DNA of 35,919 bases from Candidatus Omnitrophota bacterium (GTDB lineage: Bacteria > Omnitrophota > Gorgyraeia > JAHIPI01): contig JAHIPI010000054.1 of the NCBI GenBank assembly GCA_018894435.1, positions 1 through 35,919 of the forward strand, read 5' to 3'. A program made the translations under genes and the position numbers. The notes beneath the pieces are model-generated. The model ran no database searches. It was not told the DNA's origin and saw only the letters and a list, made by a program, of their open reading frames with translations. The number at the start of each line of letters is the position of its first letter. The stretch's first letter is position 1. Below are positions 3,125-11,238 of the stretch, one piece after another.

Positions 3125-4645
3125 CTACACCACAAAAAGGTTCTTACTTGAAAAGATGGGTTCAGTGGTAAGGTTTACGCCTAATCTTCTCAGGCCGGTC
3201 TCATCCCCCGGGGTAGGAATATGCGTCATATGGACTTCGCAGCCCCGCAGTTCTTTCAGCTTCTCCATGGCTATTTGGGCAGTCGGATTGGTGGCGGCGC
3301 TTATGCTAAGCGCTATCAATGTCTCTTCTAAGTCGAGGTTAACGGCCTTCGAATTTAAAATATTTCTCTTAAGGTTGCCGACGGACTCTATTATAGCAGG
3401 AGACAACAGGTGTATCTTGTCCGGTATCTCGGCCAATTCTTTTATGGCATTTAAAACAAGGCTCGATGCGGCGTGCATGAGAGGTGAATTTTTGCCCGTC
3501 ACTACAGAGCCGTCTTTTAATTCTATGGCAGCGCCGCAGAATACGCCTTCATTTCCTTTGTTTTTGTCTTCCGCCTCATTCCGCGCTTTTTTAGATGAGC
3601 CGACCACTAATCTATCGTCAGGCTTAATGTCGAGCTCCTTCATCAAGATTTCTACCCTCTCTACTGTCTCTTTATCCACGAATCCCATAATGTATTCGCA
3701 GCCGTATCTGAAATGACGCCTGATTATCTCCTGTTTTGCCGCATCTTTTACGGCCCCGTCATTTATTATGCCAAAACCGGCGCGGTTTACGCCCATATCC
3801 GTCGGAGATTTATAAGATAATTCGCCGGTCATTATCCTGTCCAATATTCTCTTCAATACCGGGAATACCTCAACATCTCGGTTATAGTTGATGGCGGTCT
3901 TTCGGTATGCTTCCAAATGAAAAGGATCTATGAGGTTAAAATCTCTTATGTCGGCAGTTGCCGCTTCATACGCCACATTTACAGGGTGCTTAAGCGGGAG
4001 GTTCCATATGGGGAAAGTTTCAAATTTTGCGTATCCCGATTTTACGCCCCCTTTGTGTTCATGATATAGCTGCGAAAGGCATGTAGCTAATTTTCCGCTT
4101 CCGGGGCCGGGGGCGGTCACCACCACTAGAGGATTCTTCGTCTTTATATATTCATTGGCTCCGTAGCCTTCTTCGCTCACTATCAGATCTATGTCAGTAG
4201 GATATCCCTTTGTAAAACGGTGGGTGTAGACTTTTATATTATTGCGCTCAAGTTTATTTTTAAATATCCTTGCCGCCGGTTGATTTTCGAAACGGGTTAT
4301 TACTACTGCCAATATATCTATGCCCCACTCCCTCAGATCATCTATCAATTTAAACACATCTACATCATAGGTAATACCAAAATCCGCCCTTACTTTCCTT
4401 CTCTCAATGTCACCGGCATATATGCACAATATTATGTCGGCCTTGTCCTTCAATTTTTGCAATAGCCGCATCTTTACATTCGGGTCAAACCCGGGCAATA
4501 CCCTCGCCGCGTGATAATCAAAAATGATCTTTCCGCCGAATTCCAGGTATAGTTTATTGTCGAATTTCTTTACTCTTTCAAGAATCGCGGCGGTCTGTTC
4601 CTTAAGGTACTTTTCGTTATCAAATCCTGCTTTTTTGAGTGCCAT
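3125..4645 (-). CDS. DUF1846 (UPF0371) protein
   Basis: A 506-residue protein of the DUF1846 family, full length for the family (about 500 residues). The family has solved structures but no settled function. Visible features are the conserved N-terminal block ([20 protein letters not shown]), a phosphate-loop-like segment GPGSGK at residues 180-185 within [20 protein letters not shown], and a conserved [10 protein letters not shown] block. It starts 1 base after the carB stop, so it is cotranslated with carB and gdhA. That context suggests a nucleotide- or nitrogen-linked enzyme, but this is inference from position only. The start is ATG with AAAGGT upstream. Confidence 0.85.
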
Positions 4646-4646
4646 T

Positions 4647-7600
4647 TTACCTTTTTGCGAAGATATTTTTTAAGGAAGATATAAGATTATATCCTCCCTT
4701 CGGCTCCGCCAGTTCTTTATGATAATCCTGCAATGACTTCGGCACAACTTTACTCTTCTTCATCGCTTCTATGCCTTCGACGCTTGCTTCCGCGGCTGTC
4801 AACGTCGTGATGTAGGGGATCTTATGCTGTATGGCCATCATACGTATATAGCTGTCGTCGTATTTGCCGCTTCTTCCGACAGGCGTATTTATTATGAGAT
4901 GGATCTCCTTATTCTTTATCATGTCCGCTATGTTTGGCCTGCCTTCATGCAGTTTCTTTACCGTATCGTTTTCCACGCCTTTTTCCCTTAGGAACTCACT
5001 TGTCCCTTCCGTGGAATAGATTTTAAAACCGAGTTTCTTTATGCGTTTTGCTATCGGCAAGAGGTGGGTTTTGTCTTTATCGGCTACCGTCAAAAGCACA
5101 TTGCCTTCGAGCGGCAGCTTCGATCCGGAGGCCTCCTCCGCCTTGTAAAAAGCGAGCCCGAAGGTGTCCGCCATACCCATGACCTCGCCAGTCGCCCTCA
5201 TTTCGGGCCCCAACACAGGATCGACTTCGGGAAACATATTGAACGGAAAGACCGCTTCTTTAACACCGACATAAGGAAGTTTATGCACTTTTAGCTCGGG
5301 AAAATCTTTCAGTTTTTTACCGAGTATCATCTGCGTGGCTATCCTCGCTATCGGTGAGCCCGTCATCTTAGAAACAACGGGAACGGTCCTTGACGCCCTG
5401 GGATTCGCCTCAAGAATATACACTTTATTGTCGCATATCGCGTATTGTATATTGATAAGCCCCACAACTTTCAGCTCTTTGGCTATAGCCGCGGTATATT
5501 TTTCTATTGTCTTCAAATGCTCTTCTTTGATCGTCCTCGGCGGAATAGCGCAGGCGGAATCTCCCGAATGAATGCCGGCCAATTCTATGTGTTCCATGAC
5601 GGCCGCTATGAATGTTTCGTTTCCGTCGCAAAGAGCATCGACTTCGGCCTCTACGGCCTGTTCCAAAAATCTGTCTATGAGCATCGGGTGTTCGGGGCTG
5701 ACTTTGATGGCCTCTACGGCATATTTGCGCAGCATATCTTCGTCGAAGATCACTTCCATGCCGCGTCCGCCCAGGACATAAGACGGCCTTACCATAAGCG
5801 GGTAGCCGATCTTTTTTGCGATCACTATTGCTTCATCCAGCGATCTGGCAGTCCCGCTCTCCGGCTGAGGTATGCCCATCTCTATCATCTTTTTGCGGAA
5901 TAGCTCCCTGTCTTCCGCAAACGCAATGCTTTCCGTGCTTGTCCCGAGAATTTTGACGCCGTTATCTTTTAATTCCTGCGCAATATTTAACGGCGTTTGC
6001 CCGCCGAACTGGACTATCGCGCCTTCGGGTTTTTCTTTCTCGTAAATCGCAAGGACATCTTCCACTGTCACAGGTTCGAAATAGAGCTTGTTTGAAGTGT
6101 CATAATCCGTCGAGACCGTCTCGGGATTGCAGTTCACCATAATAGATTCATAGCCTTCATCACGGAGCGCGAACGCCGCGTGAACGCAGGTATAGTCGAA
6201 TTCAATCCCCTGTCCGATCCTGTTCGGTCCGCCGCCCAAGATCATGATCTTCTTCTTTGCGGAAACTGGAACGGCATCTTTTCCGCTATATGTCGAGTAG
6301 TAATAAGCCGCATCTTTTACGCCGCTTACGGGCACGGCTTCGTATGCGCTATATTTACCGATTTTGATCCTTTTTTCCCTAACCGCCTTTTCCGATACAT
6401 CGAATAGCCCGGCCAGGTATTTATCGGAAAAACCCCATTCCTTCGCCTTTATCAGCAAACCATTCGGGAAATTATTCCATTTATAAGCAAGGATCTCTTC
6501 CTCGAAATCAACCAATTCCTTCATCTCTTTTATGAACCATGTGCCGATATGCGTCATTTTGTATAAATCTTCAACGGATATCCCCTTGCGCAGCGCTTCG
6601 TACATCAAAAATATACGCTCGCTTGAAGGAGACGCAAGCCTTTCCTTAAGTTCGTCAACGGAAAGTGTTTTAAAGTCCTTGACGCCCAGGCCATAGCGCT
6701 TGATTTCCAGAGAGCGTATGGCTTTCTGGAAGGCCTCTTTAAAGGTCTTCCCTATACTCATAACCTCGCCTACGGCTTTCATCTGCGTGCCAAGAATATC
6801 TTTTGCCTGCGCAAACTTTTCAAAAGCCCATCGCGCAAATTTTATGACTACGTACTCGCCCCACGGCTCATATTTCTCGAGCGTGCCCTTTCTCCAGTAC
6901 GGTATCTCATCCATGGTAAGTCCCGCGGCAAGTTTCGTGGAAATACGCGCTATCGGAAATCCGGTCGCTTTTGAAGCCAGGGCCGAAGAGCGGGAAGTCC
7001 TTGGATTAATTTCAATGGCTACCAGCCTGTCATCCTCCAGATTATGGGCAAACTGAATATTCGTGCCGCCTATTACGCCGATTGCTTCGACGATCTTATA
7101 GGAAATGTCCTGCATTCTCTTCTGCAGTTTTTCCGGCACCGTCAACATGGGGGCGACGCAAAAACTGTCGCCTGTATGGACGCCCATAGGATCGATATTC
7201 TCGATAAAACAGACTGTTATCATATGGTTTTTCGCGTCTCTTACCACCTCAAGCTCAAGTTCCTCCCATCCCAAAACAGATTCTTCCAGGAGAATCTGAT
7301 GTATCAAACTCGCGGCAAGGCCCCGGCTTGTGATAGTCCTGAGCTCTTCCACGTTATAAGCTATACCCCCGCCCGTTCCACCGAGGGTATAAGCGGGCCT
7401 AATGACTACCGGATATTTTAAACGTTCGGCTATAGCTTCGGCCTCTTCTACGGAATAACACGGCTCGGACTTGGGAATAGAAACGCCAAGCTTATTCATA
7501 GTATCTTTGAACGCGATCCTGTCTTCGCCGCGTTCAATAGCGTCTGCCTTGACACCTATGATCTCCACATTATATTTGGACAGGACCCCTGCTTTATAAA

Positions 7601-7904
7601 GAGCGGATGCCAGGTTTAGGCCTGTTTGTCCGCCTAAATTCGGCAAAAGCGCATCCGGCCTCTCTTTTTCTATGATCTTCTCGACGCTCTCGACGGTAAG
7701 TGGCTCTATGTATGTTTTGTCAGCCGTTCCCGGATCTGTCATGATCGTGGCGGGATTTGAATTGACAAGCACTACCTCATACCCCTCTTCTTTGAGCGCC
7801 TTGCATGCCTGCGTACCCGAATAGTCAAATTCGCAGGCCTGTCCTATAATAATAGGCCCGGAGCCTATTATAAGTACTTTGTGAATATCATTTCGTCTCG
7901 GCAT
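4647..7904 (-). CDS. carB: Carbamoyl-phosphate synthase large subunit
   Basis: A 1085-residue protein, about the usual length (E. coli 1073). It makes carbamoyl phosphate from bicarbonate, glutamine-derived ammonia and two ATP, for pyrimidines and arginine. The two homologous halves are both intact: the first begins [20 protein letters not shown], the second [20 protein letters not shown]. Each carries an ATP-grasp domain ([16 protein letters not shown] and [34 protein letters not shown] and [15 protein letters not shown]). A C-terminal MGS-like allosteric domain lies near residues 940-1060, including [12 protein letters not shown]. No carA is next to it; the small subunit must lie elsewhere. 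It starts 2 bases after gdhA, which fits a shared transcript. Its coupling with gdhA puts ammonia capture and carbamoyl phosphate synthesis under one leader. Confidence 0.97.
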
Positions 7905-7906
7905 AT

Positions 7907-9262
<1,356 letters not shown>

Positions 9263-9286
9263 TTAATTTTTGTGCACGCCAAAACA

Positions 9287-9330
9287 TAAAAATAGACGCT
9301 CCGCCTTTCTTTGAAAGGCCCTGGAACGTC
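9287..9330 (-). terminator. Intrinsic terminator (attenuator) in the gdhA leader
   Basis: In the minus-strand RNA, GACGUUCC pairs with GGAGCGUC (8 bp, one G-U). After a 3-base bulge, GCCUUUC pairs with GAAAGGC around an AAA loop. UAUUUUU follows directly. It lies between the promoter and the gdhA Shine-Dalgarno sequence, so it would stop transcription before the gene unless the 5' arm is held by the upstream hairpin. Confidence 0.85.
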
Positions 9331-9360
9331 TTTGTTCTTTCCTGACACAGCATTGTATCA
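9324..9360 (-). ncRNA. ANTAR-target dual hexaloop RNA in the gdhA leader
   Basis: Two small hairpins lie in tandem in the minus-strand leader. P1 (9343-9360) is a 6-bp stem UGAUAC/GUGUCA around loop AAUGCU. P2 (9324-9337) is a 4-bp stem GAAC/GUUC around loop AAAGAC. They are 5 bases apart. Both loops have six bases with A at position 1 and G at position 4, the published signature of RNAs bound by ANTAR domains (EutV, NasR, AmiR type). The 3' arm of P2 lies within the 5' arm of the terminator, so the two folds exclude each other. A GAF-ANTAR protein is encoded at 10143-10859. Binding itself is inferred. Confidence 0.75.
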
Positions 9361-9377
9361 AACCTAGTTTGCAAGAA

Positions 9378-9406
9378 ATTATATCGTATCTAAACCGTTT
9401 AGTCAA
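9378..9406 (-). promoter_or_regulatory. Sigma-70 promoter of the gdhA-carB-DUF1846 operon
   Basis: On the minus strand TTGACT (9406-9401) and a perfect TATAAT (9383-9378) are separated by 17 bases. The expected start near 9371 gives a leader of about 124 bases ahead of gdhA. The promoter begins just after the stop codon of the 215-residue gene at 9422. Confidence 0.85.
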
Positions 9407-9421
9407 GTACTTTTTACGACA

Positions 9422-10069
9422 CTATCCGATTTCAGATTCTATCTTTTTTATTAAACTGCCCGTTTCCTTAATAAGAGCGGCAGGGATCATCTTCAAAAGT
9501 TCCATATCTCTCTTCACTGTCCTGAGCGTGCCTAAAAGCCTCTTCAAGGTAGTGATCTTTTTTTTCCTTCTTGCCTCTTCCGGCTCCAGTTCCTCCCTGT
9601 CCCTGATCAGCGCCGTAAGGTCTTTTTTTATCTCTCTTGCGTCCTGGCCCTTTTCAAAGACCTTCTTCTTCAACTGGGTATAGTCGCCTGCGTCGAGCGT
9701 CTTTTTATTCCTGGCAAGCCTGAGTACATTGACCGCATCACAACTCGGTATTGAAGCAACCTCCTCTGATTTGGCATAATCCTTTTCCAGATATTCCGGC
9801 TCTTCTTTTTCCAAAAAATAATAGGACCTCAAAAGTTTCATCGCAGTCTGCTTCTTTATGCCTATCTCTTTGGCGGTATACGCCTCAAACGTCAGATACC
9901 CCCATTCCTTATACAACTTATCTTTCCATACCGAATAAAGCGCCTGGCCCAGCGATATCCAGGATATCTTGAAGTTTTTCACTTTCTCAAGGATCTGGTA
10001 GCGTAGAGAATTTTCATCCATATCCTGCATTCTTTGCTCTATTTTTTCTATCGATTTGGTTCTTAGCAT
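9422..10069 (-). CDS. Uncharacterised basic protein, possible helix-turn-helix, upstream of gdhA
   Basis: A 215-residue protein I do not recognise as a named family. It is highly charged. The N-terminal part has a conserved-looking block with WISLGQALYSVWKDKLYKEW followed by a segment that could be a helix-turn-helix (EIGIKKQTAMKLLRSYYFLE, about residues 67-86). The C-terminal third is lysine/arginine-rich and predicted helical, possibly a coiled coil (ALIRDREELEPEEARRKKK). No signal peptide or membrane helix. It lies between the GAF-ANTAR gene and the gdhA promoter on the same strand, separated from the former by a palindromic repeat. A regulatory or nucleic-acid-binding role is an inference from composition and place. 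The start is ATG; the nearby GATAAGAAAG is only a weak ribosome site. Confidence 0.7.
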   Translation of the reverse strand: MLRTKSIEKIEQRMQDMDENSLRYQILEKVKNFKISWISLGQALYSVWKDKLYKEWGYLTFEAYTAKEIGIKKQTAMKLLRSYYFLEKEEPEYLEKDYAKSEEVASIPSCDAVNVLRLARNKKTLDAGDYTQLKKKVFEKGQDAREIKKDLTALIRDREELEPEEARRKKKITTLKRLLGTLRTVKRDMELLKMIPAALIKETGSLIKKIESEIG

Positions 10070-10090: not shown

Positions 10091-10146
10091 CCCTCGACGC
10101 ACTTCGTTTGCTCGGGGTTGACCCTGAGCGTAGTCGAACGGGTCAA
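10091..10146. repeat. Palindromic repeat with CTGAG/TCGAA core
   Basis: An imperfect inverted repeat between the GAF-ANTAR gene and the 215-residue gene. CCCTCGACGC and TGCTCGGGG on one side face CCCTGAGCG and TAGTCGAACGGG on the other. TTGACCC (10118-10124) and GGGTCAA (10140-10146) form an inner inverted repeat. The stop codon of the GAF-ANTAR gene lies inside it. The core CCTGAGCG-TAGTCGAA resembles palindromes scattered through many bacterial and metagenomic genomes. A relative lies at 12611-12647. Confidence 0.65.
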
Positions 10147-10859
10147 TGCGCCTTGCCGAGTTCTTCATTCAACATGATAGCTTCCGCTATTTCGCGCATG
10201 CTGCGCCTTTTGTCCATGCTGTATCTTCTTATTCTTTGATATGCCTCTTCCTCGCTAAGCGCCTCTTTCTTCATGAGAATGCCCTTTGCCCTTTCTACGA
10301 TCTTGCGCGATTCCAGCTCTTCCCTTATAACATTCGATTCGACGATGAGCCTGAAATTCTCTATGACTATAGCGGCCTGATTAGCGATAGATTTCAATAC
10401 ATTTATTTCGTTATGGCTGAAGCGGTGTGGTTTTGGCGTATAACAATTAAGAACGCCTATTACCTTCTTTTTTGAGAAAAGAGGTACACTTAATAATGAA
10501 CATAGATTTTCGTGAACGGCTATTTCCCTCGACTTATAACGCTTATCCTTGCGCACATCCAGGACAGTTATCGGCTTTCCTTCCCTGGCTACCTTTCCGG
10601 CAACGCCTTCGCCCAATTTTATATTCGCCTTCTTATTATACTCTTCGCTCACGGACTGGGTCGCTTTGACGCTAAGTTCCCTGCCGGATTTATCCAAGAG
10701 GAGGATCGAGCAGATATTGGAGCCCATCACTTCGGCCGTCACCGCAACTATAAGCTTCAATATGTCTTCCAAATATAGATCCGAAGTGATAGCTTCGCTT
10801 ATCTTTGCCAGCGCCTGTATTACTTTAGCGCCTGAGTTCTCTTTATTTTTAGCGCTCAT
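10143..10859 (-). CDS. GAF-ANTAR RNA-binding antitermination regulator
   Basis: A cytoplasmic regulator of about 238 residues. A GAF sensor domain covers roughly residues 10-165 (VIQALAKISEAI through ANQAAIVIENFRLI), and a C-terminal ANTAR domain roughly 175-232. The ANTAR part is textbook: IVERAKGILMKKEALSEEEA, then SMDKRRSMREIAEAI. ANTAR domains bind RNA hairpin pairs and prevent transcription termination; the GAF ligand is unknown. The frame opens with TTG at 10883, inside the PEGA gene, but ATG 10859, one base after the PEGA stop, is the better start. It is thus translationally coupled to the PEGA lipoprotein gene. The nearest operon downstream, gdhA, has a leader that matches ANTAR targets, which makes this protein its likely regulator. 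No phosphoacceptor receiver domain is present. Confidence 0.92.
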   Translation of the reverse strand: MSAKNKENSGAKVIQALAKISEAITSDLYLEDILKLIVAVTAEVMGSNICSILLLDKSGRELSVKATQSVSEEYNKKANIKLGEGVAGKVAREGKPITVLDVRKDKRYKSREIAVHENLCSLLSVPLFSKKKVIGVLNCYTPKPHRFSHNEINVLKSIANQAAIVIENFRLIVESNVIREELESRKIVERAKGILMKKEALSEEEAYQRIRRYSMDKRRSMREIAEAIMLNEELGKAH

Positions 10860-10860
10860 C

Positions 10861-11238
10861 TCATTCTTCTTTCTTAAGTTCAACGTGCACTTTGTCCGGT
10901 ACCAGCCTGTATTGAGACCCTGTCAGTCCGTCCACTGCCCAGCCGACAGGCCCCCATATGAATATATTACCGGCCGCTGCGCTGCCAATGGCGCGTGAAA
11001 GCGCGACCTTCTCTTCTTTATACCCTTCTTTTGTAATGACCACGGTATGGTTAAACGGCGTCTTGAGTTTTATCTTCATCGGTGTAGTGCCGACGGCTTC
11101 ACCGTCGATTTCTACCGTGGCGCCCTGCGGGTCGGATGAAATCTCTATTCTCTGCTTTGTCCCCTGCACAATAGTGGCACAACCTGCTGCGGAAAAGATA
11201 AGTAGAAGTACTAAAATATAACTTATGGACTTACGCAT
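10861..11238 (-). CDS. PEGA-domain lipoprotein
   Basis: A 125-residue predicted lipoprotein. The signal peptide ends in SAAGC with Cys20 as the lipidation site. Residues about 30-75 form a PEGA domain: ISSDPQGATVEIDGEAVGTT followed by PMKIKLK and ITKEGYKEE, a surface beta-domain common in envelope proteins. A glycine- and alanine-rich hydrophobic stretch (about 84-108, with IWGPVGWAVDGLTG) may sit in or on a membrane. The stop is one base from the start of the GAF-ANTAR gene, so the two are coupled. A consensus promoter at 11246-11274 ends only 7 bases from the ATG, so the mRNA is probably leaderless. The lipobox requires this start. A link between an envelope lipoprotein and the GAF sensor is possible but unproven. 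Confidence 0.88.
   Translation of the reverse strand: MRKSISYILVLLLIFSAAGCATIVQGTKQRIEISSDPQGATVEIDGEAVGTTPMKIKLKTPFNHTVVITKEGYKEEKVALSRAIGSAAAGNIFIWGPVGWAVDGLTGSQYRLVPDKVHVELKKEE

Follow-up and report, generated by a model that had tools for sequence, protein, structure and literature searches.

The closest described relatives of the leader reported here are the ANTAR leaders of the Enterococcus faecalis eut genes (EutV), of nasF (NasR) and of amiE (AmiR), in which two small hairpins carry six-base loops with A at position 1 and G at position 4 (A1/G4) and AC/GU closing pairs, the second hairpin (P2) overlapping an intrinsic terminator (PMC3369931, PMC8934654). In the natural E. faecalis eut leaders the two hairpins are separated by linkers of 5-12 nt (PMC3369931, PMC8934654). 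Deletion of the first hairpin (P1) abolishes induction in the EutV system (PMC3369931), and in the view of a structural paper termination is prevented only when a dimer touches both loops (PMC8934654). ANTAR leaders have also been described at glutamine synthetase and glutamate synthase, for example at the glutamate synthase of Desulfotomaculum reducens (PMC3369931, PMC3369936). Actinobacterial ANTAR RNAs, with linkers of 2-25 nt, are dual stem-loops with A1/G4 loops and often cover the ribosome site or the start codon (PMC8164766).

Here we describe a leader before gdhA in a stretch of 35,919 nucleotides from a Candidatus Omnitrophota bacterium (the window). It shares the two A1/G4 hexaloops, the closing pairs and the overlap of P2 with a terminator with the eut, nasF and amiE leaders, and the dual stem-loop with the actinobacterial RNAs, but overlaps a terminator instead of the ribosome site or start codon. 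As with the leaders of glutamine synthetase and glutamate synthase, it concerns the control of ammonium assimilation, with several operons per genome. In contrast to eut, nasF and amiE, the target is gdhA-carB in Omnitrophota, the presumed regulator is a GAF-ANTAR protein without a receiver domain, and among the sister leaders are forms with a single loop or with loops of seven bases. This would extend ANTAR control to an uncultured phylum and to a gdhA-carB operon. The preliminary description knew of no account of such control, and in the main texts of the open full-text literature we found no paper on it, none with a heptaloop and none dealing with ANTAR in Omnitrophota; among the papers listed as naming both ANTAR and gdhA, none looked relevant, and the main text of PMC3369931 has no gdhA among the described leaders. 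Nevertheless, since glutamine synthetase and glutamate synthase already belong to ANTAR regulons (PMC3369936, PMC3369931), gdhA-carB is an extension of these, and the claim of novelty holds only to that extent.

Anatomy of the gdhA leader and its operon

As the preliminary description had stated, the minus strand carries two hairpins with the hexaloops AAUGCU (9354-9349) and AAAGAC (9333-9328), with A1 and G4 in both (Table 1). P1 has AC/GU closing pairs and two terminal G-U pairs. The short, A-rich linker measures 3 nt with the full P1 and 5 nt if the terminal G-U pairs open, so the spacing of 5 bases given earlier applies to the opened form; both lengths agree with the short linkers of ANTAR targets. 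The terminator has the layout GACGUUCC-AGG-GCCUUUC-AAA-GAAAGGC-GGAGCGUC-UAUUUUU, in which GACGUUCC (9330-9323) pairs with GGAGCGUC (9302-9295) around the inner helix GCCUUUC/GAAAGGC, followed by the tail UAUUUUU. The coordinates also bear out that the 3' arm of P2 (GUUC) lies inside the terminator 5' arm, just before the gdhA ribosome site. Because the 3' half of P2 is part of that arm, P2 and the terminator are mutually exclusive; P1 is compatible with either. The evaluated energies are -6.6 kcal/mol for P1, -2.6 kcal/mol for P2 and -21.2 kcal/mol for the terminator, whose fold has a z of about -4 to -5. Thus the terminator, far stronger by energy, would win unaided, and P2, with its 4 bp, would need the help of a protein. 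The well-spaced promoter noted upstream was recovered, with its -35 hexamer at 9406-9401 and its -10 hexamer at 9383-9378, and would place the transcript start near 9371. An Rfam search returned no riboswitch, for glutamine or otherwise, and no family over threshold; a PsrR1 match was at chance level and was discarded.

Downstream of carB, the DUF1846 gene is probably the third gene of the operon. Elsewhere, DUF1846 genes have their own attenuator (L018:17059-17114) or adjoin GAF-ANTAR (L051, L058), and operon, attenuator and neighbourhood together suggest a role in nitrogen metabolism. A 215-aa protein encoded at 9422-10069, between the GAF-ANTAR gene and gdhA, has no Pfam or NCBIfam match. 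A 34-codon ORF on the minus strand (9353-9249), probably there by chance, begins in the P1 loop and ends just before the gdhA start.

Table 1. Features of the gdhA locus and matches to the covariance models in the same genome; positions without a prefix are those of the window.
Feature	Position	Strand	Remarks
gdhA leader	about 9371-9287	minus	P1, P2, intrinsic terminator
Sigma-70-like promoter TTGACT-17-TATAAT	9378..9406	minus	11/12 consensus matches
P1 hairpin UUUGAUAC-AAUGCU-GUGUCAGG	9341..9362	minus	8 bp, A1 and G4 hexaloop
P2 hairpin GAAC-AAAGAC-GUUC, antiterminator arm	9324..9337	minus	A1 and G4 loop; conserved and covarying in relatives
Intrinsic terminator	9287..9330	minus	U-rich tail, inner helix, mutually exclusive with P2
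gdhA ribosome-binding site AAGGAG	9255..9260	minus	from sequence
Covariance model match (R1 and R2; P2 and U-tract)	9286..9340	minus	R1 E 2.1e-5, R2 E 6.6e-4
R2 match	C84:894-946		before glnA-gltB
R2 match	C54:9286-9340		before gdhA-carB (window leader)
R2 match	C48:4975-5028		before 265-aa protein gene, then amtB-glnK
gdhA, NADP-specific glutamate dehydrogenase	7907..9247	minus	ATG at 9247
carB, carbamoyl-phosphate synthase large subunit	4647..7904	minus	2-nt gap to gdhA
DUF1846 protein gene	3125..4645	minus	1-nt gap to carB
GAF-ANTAR protein gene	10143..10883	minus	presumed regulator; sole ANTAR protein found in genome

The GAF-ANTAR protein and its predicted regulon

A regulator gene had been placed close to the leader, and a Pfam ANTAR search of the own genome (1.57 Mb, 96 contigs) found one protein only, the GAF-ANTAR protein at 10143-10883, about 0.9 kb upstream of gdhA. 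The ANTAR part of this protein can be aligned with EutV, Rv1626, NasR and AmiR, all of which have known structures. Once EutV residues are shifted by two to bring the numbering of the chain into line with that of the paper, 8 of 11 EutV contact positions are identical (R142, K143, K149, E160, Y164, R168, M172, R175) and three are changed (K147 to R, N173 to D, R177 to S). In EutV, E160, R142 and K149 coordinate the flipped hexaloop G4, on which Y164 stacks (PMC8934654). The GAF domain resembles that of NifA and PtsP and may read nitrogen status.

When the own genome was searched with the covariance model R2, exactly three good matches were obtained (E 2.5e-4 to 1.6e-3, the next at 0.28; these E-values have a rough calibration), and all three precede ammonium-assimilation operons. 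The glnA leader has a P1 with the seven-base loop AAAGUUU; no clear P1 is seen in the amtB leader, whose P2 consists of just three pairs. The 265-aa protein (L109:2044-2841) encoded first in the amtB-glnK operon looks, by eye, secreted or outer-membrane and has no NCBIfam match, and genes of like size (251-272 aa) occupy that position in relatives.

The traits of ANTAR targets found here, namely two adjacent hexaloop hairpins with A1/G4 in both loops, mutual exclusion of P2 and terminator, compensatory conservation and an ANTAR protein with the contact residues, form the computed support together with regulon membership and ANTAR co-occurrence. On this sequence evidence ANTAR-type antitermination at the gdhA leader is well supported, and we are highly confident in reading this leader as a transcription attenuator that responds to ANTAR, probably controlled by the GAF-ANTAR protein and shared with the glnA-gltB and amtB-glnK leaders. 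By default, a polymerase starting near 9371 would make P1 and then the terminator (9330-9287), stopping before gdhA. Once active, the GAF-ANTAR protein is predicted to bind the leader, its ANTAR domain holding the A1/G4 loop of P1 and then that of P2, as proposed for EutV. The held P2 would keep part of the terminator 5' arm, the terminator would be blocked, and gdhA-carB-DUF1846 would be transcribed. The same protein would also control the glnA-gltB and amtB-glnK operons via similar leaders. A single RNA-binding protein that acts on termination probably coordinates how this lineage takes up and assimilates ammonium.

Conservation and distribution of the motif

GAF-ANTAR relatives were taken from 76 places, mostly in Omnitrophota, plus Elusimicrobia, Caldatribacterium and others. 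Hexaloop hairpins that lie upstream of genes and overlap a terminator were strongly skewed towards A1/G4, with 53 of 241 in that class against an average of 15 for each of the sixteen possible classes. Thirty A1/G4 hexaloop and terminator sites served as seeds of the R1 model, the window among them, so that the R1 E-value of 2.1e-5 for the gdhA leader is that of a seed sequence; R2 comprised 74 sites from other genomes (R1 matches realigned), with the own-genome sequence left out. Both are single-hairpin models covering P2 and the U-tract, and this design outperformed a strict two-hexaloop scan, which failed to pick up most sister leaders, their P1 frequently being missing or carrying a seven-base loop. 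The P2 stem occurs as GGAC/GUCC, GAAC/GUUC, AAAC/GUUU, AGAC/GUCU and GGGC/GCCC. Double-sided changes in it number 65 against 29 ± 6 in shuffles, and its covariation score is 0.470 against 0.303 shuffled, a signal that is destroyed by sliding the partner and that is overstated, since pairing had been a condition for choosing the sites and the model guided their alignment. The P2 5' arm lies outside the core helix of the terminator, and nothing else would obviously make it covary. Covariation was quantified for P2 only; the conservation of P1 is seen in the comparison of leaders and in the enrichment of A1/G4 hairpins upstream of P2.

The preliminary description had suggested a covariance-model check on the leaders of gdhA homologues. 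Run on these and on whole genomes with the P2 and U-tract models, it showed the dual-loop architecture kept in relatives, including the free-standing gdhA leaders among 25 genomes with a close gdhA. Two same-family leaders have changed stems, with P1 loop AAAGAG and P2 loop AAGGGC in G119, and AAUGGG and GAAGAC (A1 to G) in G118. The more distant G025 has AAAGGU in both loops and a P1, UUUGAUAC-AAAGGU-GUAUCAAG, very like that of the window; G019 has AAAGCC/AAAGAC and a long linker; G049 keeps the architecture, as does G016, with both hairpins and a 7-nt P1 loop. A seven-base P1 loop is also present in G009, G015, G022, G076 and G054, and the P1 of G049 and G009 departs from the A1/G4 rule or from the loop sequence seen elsewhere. 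There is no separate gdhA leader in other genomes, among them G117, G007, G053 and G108, where gdhA lies close behind another gene, and G117, of the same family, keeps its ANTAR gene. Loss of both hexaloops in relatives keeping the GAF-ANTAR gene had been named as counter-evidence: some of them, such as G117, have indeed lost the leader, but along with the promoter, and no loop decay was seen. The sole ANTAR match in G119 (L165, G119:C151:8677-8769) lies just upstream of gdhA; it is limited to a C-terminal fragment and contains a stop codon, as would result from gene decay or from a fault in the assembly.

An ANTAR protein is present in 74 of 117 Omnitrophota genomes, nearly always a single one. 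Among 80 Omnitrophota genomes, R1 matches at E <= 1e-3 occur in 28 of 37 with ANTAR vs 6 of 43 without (p = 2e-8), and in 19 of 37 vs 6 of 43 (p = 6e-4) when 15 kb around the ANTAR gene, from where the seeds came, are left out, in a test that ignores descent although genomes with and without ANTAR are related by kinship. The six motif-bearing genomes without a detected ANTAR gene are G026, G072, G054, G076, G109 and G045. In at least the first four the motif precedes nitrogen genes, with sites before glnA, gltB, carB or amtB operons in G026 and G072 and intact gdhA leaders in G054 and G076, which belong to one genus. Incomplete assembly may explain some of these cases, but G054 is rated 97% complete. 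A recheck of all six with the whole GAF-ANTAR protein found no ANTAR (long matches outside the own genome were <=36% identical and nearly all to the GAF part only), and the exceptions therefore stand.

Recognised nitrogen genes are found in the operons behind 92 of 117 sites, 15 of which precede gdhA (many loci were picked beside ANTAR genes). The attenuator also stands before glutamine-dependent amidotransferase genes (L083, L088, L097 (pyrG), L133 (purF) and several nadE and carAB operons), the purF and pyrG identities being confirmed. The regulon thus has glutamine consumers and not only ammonium assimilation, mixing scavenging (amtB, glnA, gltB) with functions that use ammonium or glutamine (gdhA, carAB, nadE, purF, pyrG).

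The motif-bearing genomes without a detected ANTAR, two of one genus with the motif at gdhA, are what one would expect if the same attenuator were read by another RNA-binding protein or by a metabolite, the nearby GAF-ANTAR protein not being its partner. We consider this improbable, as the A1/G4 loop and the AC/GU closing pair fit the known ANTAR target, the motif co-occurs strongly with ANTAR genes, the genome's only ANTAR lies close to the leader and Rfam recognised no riboswitch.

Two further explanations seem more improbable still. Translation of the 34-codon ORF, with the ribosome position setting termination, could be imagined because the ORF stops just before the gdhA ATG; its ribosome site is weak, however, it lacks any stretch of Glu or Gln codons, the G118 leader has no comparable peptide (by eye), and in many sister leaders the transcript begins right at P2 and reaches the terminator without passing a start codon, all of which makes peptide-coupled attenuation very unlikely. 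It is equally hard to believe that the hairpins are there by chance and that the terminator simply closes off a transcript from upstream or lets a fixed share of polymerases through. No second pair of A1/G4 hexaloops overlapping a terminator exists on either strand of the window, and dinucleotide-shuffled windows hold a mean of 0.05 such pairs each, 5 of 100 containing one, which leaves chance some room; against it speak the three model matches in the genome, all at ammonium-assimilation operons, and the way the motif persists, with compensatory changes, in different families and phyla. ANTAR-responsive attenuation remains our preferred reading.

Leaders with one hexaloop

Transcript starts inferred at 117 unique sites lie within about 12 nt of P2 in 19 cases and at 20-50 nt in 30, with up to 11 promoters per 5-nt bin vs about 0.2 in shuffled sequence. 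An A1/G4 hairpin with a six- or seven-base loop precedes P2 in 17 of the 30 leaders starting at 20-50 nt (3.7 ± 1.9 shuffled), the dual group to which the window leader belongs, and in only one of those starting within about 12 nt. Such a close start leaves room for one A1/G4 hexaloop before the terminator. Provided that their promoters are placed correctly, the single-loop leaders would depart from the two-loop requirement and may represent a new variant of the ANTAR leader; as sisters of the dual-loop leaders, they make it possible to ask directly, in natural sequences, whether two loops are necessary for ANTAR antitermination. A wider proposal, plausible to us but leaning slightly to the doubtful side, is that Omnitrophota and neighbouring phyla have a GAF-ANTAR nitrogen regulon (gdhA, glnA, gltB, amtB-glnK, nadE, carAB, pyrG, purF) with a sizeable single-hexaloop class, in which ANTAR antitermination would proceed without P1. 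Several single-loop leaders have a second attenuator in tandem downstream.

Near-consensus promoters close to P2 are found at L053:12092-12136 before gdhA, L049:894-941 before amtB, L041:10803-10853, L099:1501-1545, L124:3528-3580, L018:17059-17114 and others (19 sites). Seven-base P1 loops (AANGNNN, mostly AC/GU-closed) are frequent, as in L108:870-890, L079, L080, L018:9900-9925, L023, L084 and L119, and some P2 loops have seven bases, or G for A at position 1. Tandem attenuators, with two or three units of P2 and terminator about 50-75 nt apart per operon, occur in L007, L012, L013, L034, L041, L043, L112, L123 and L134.
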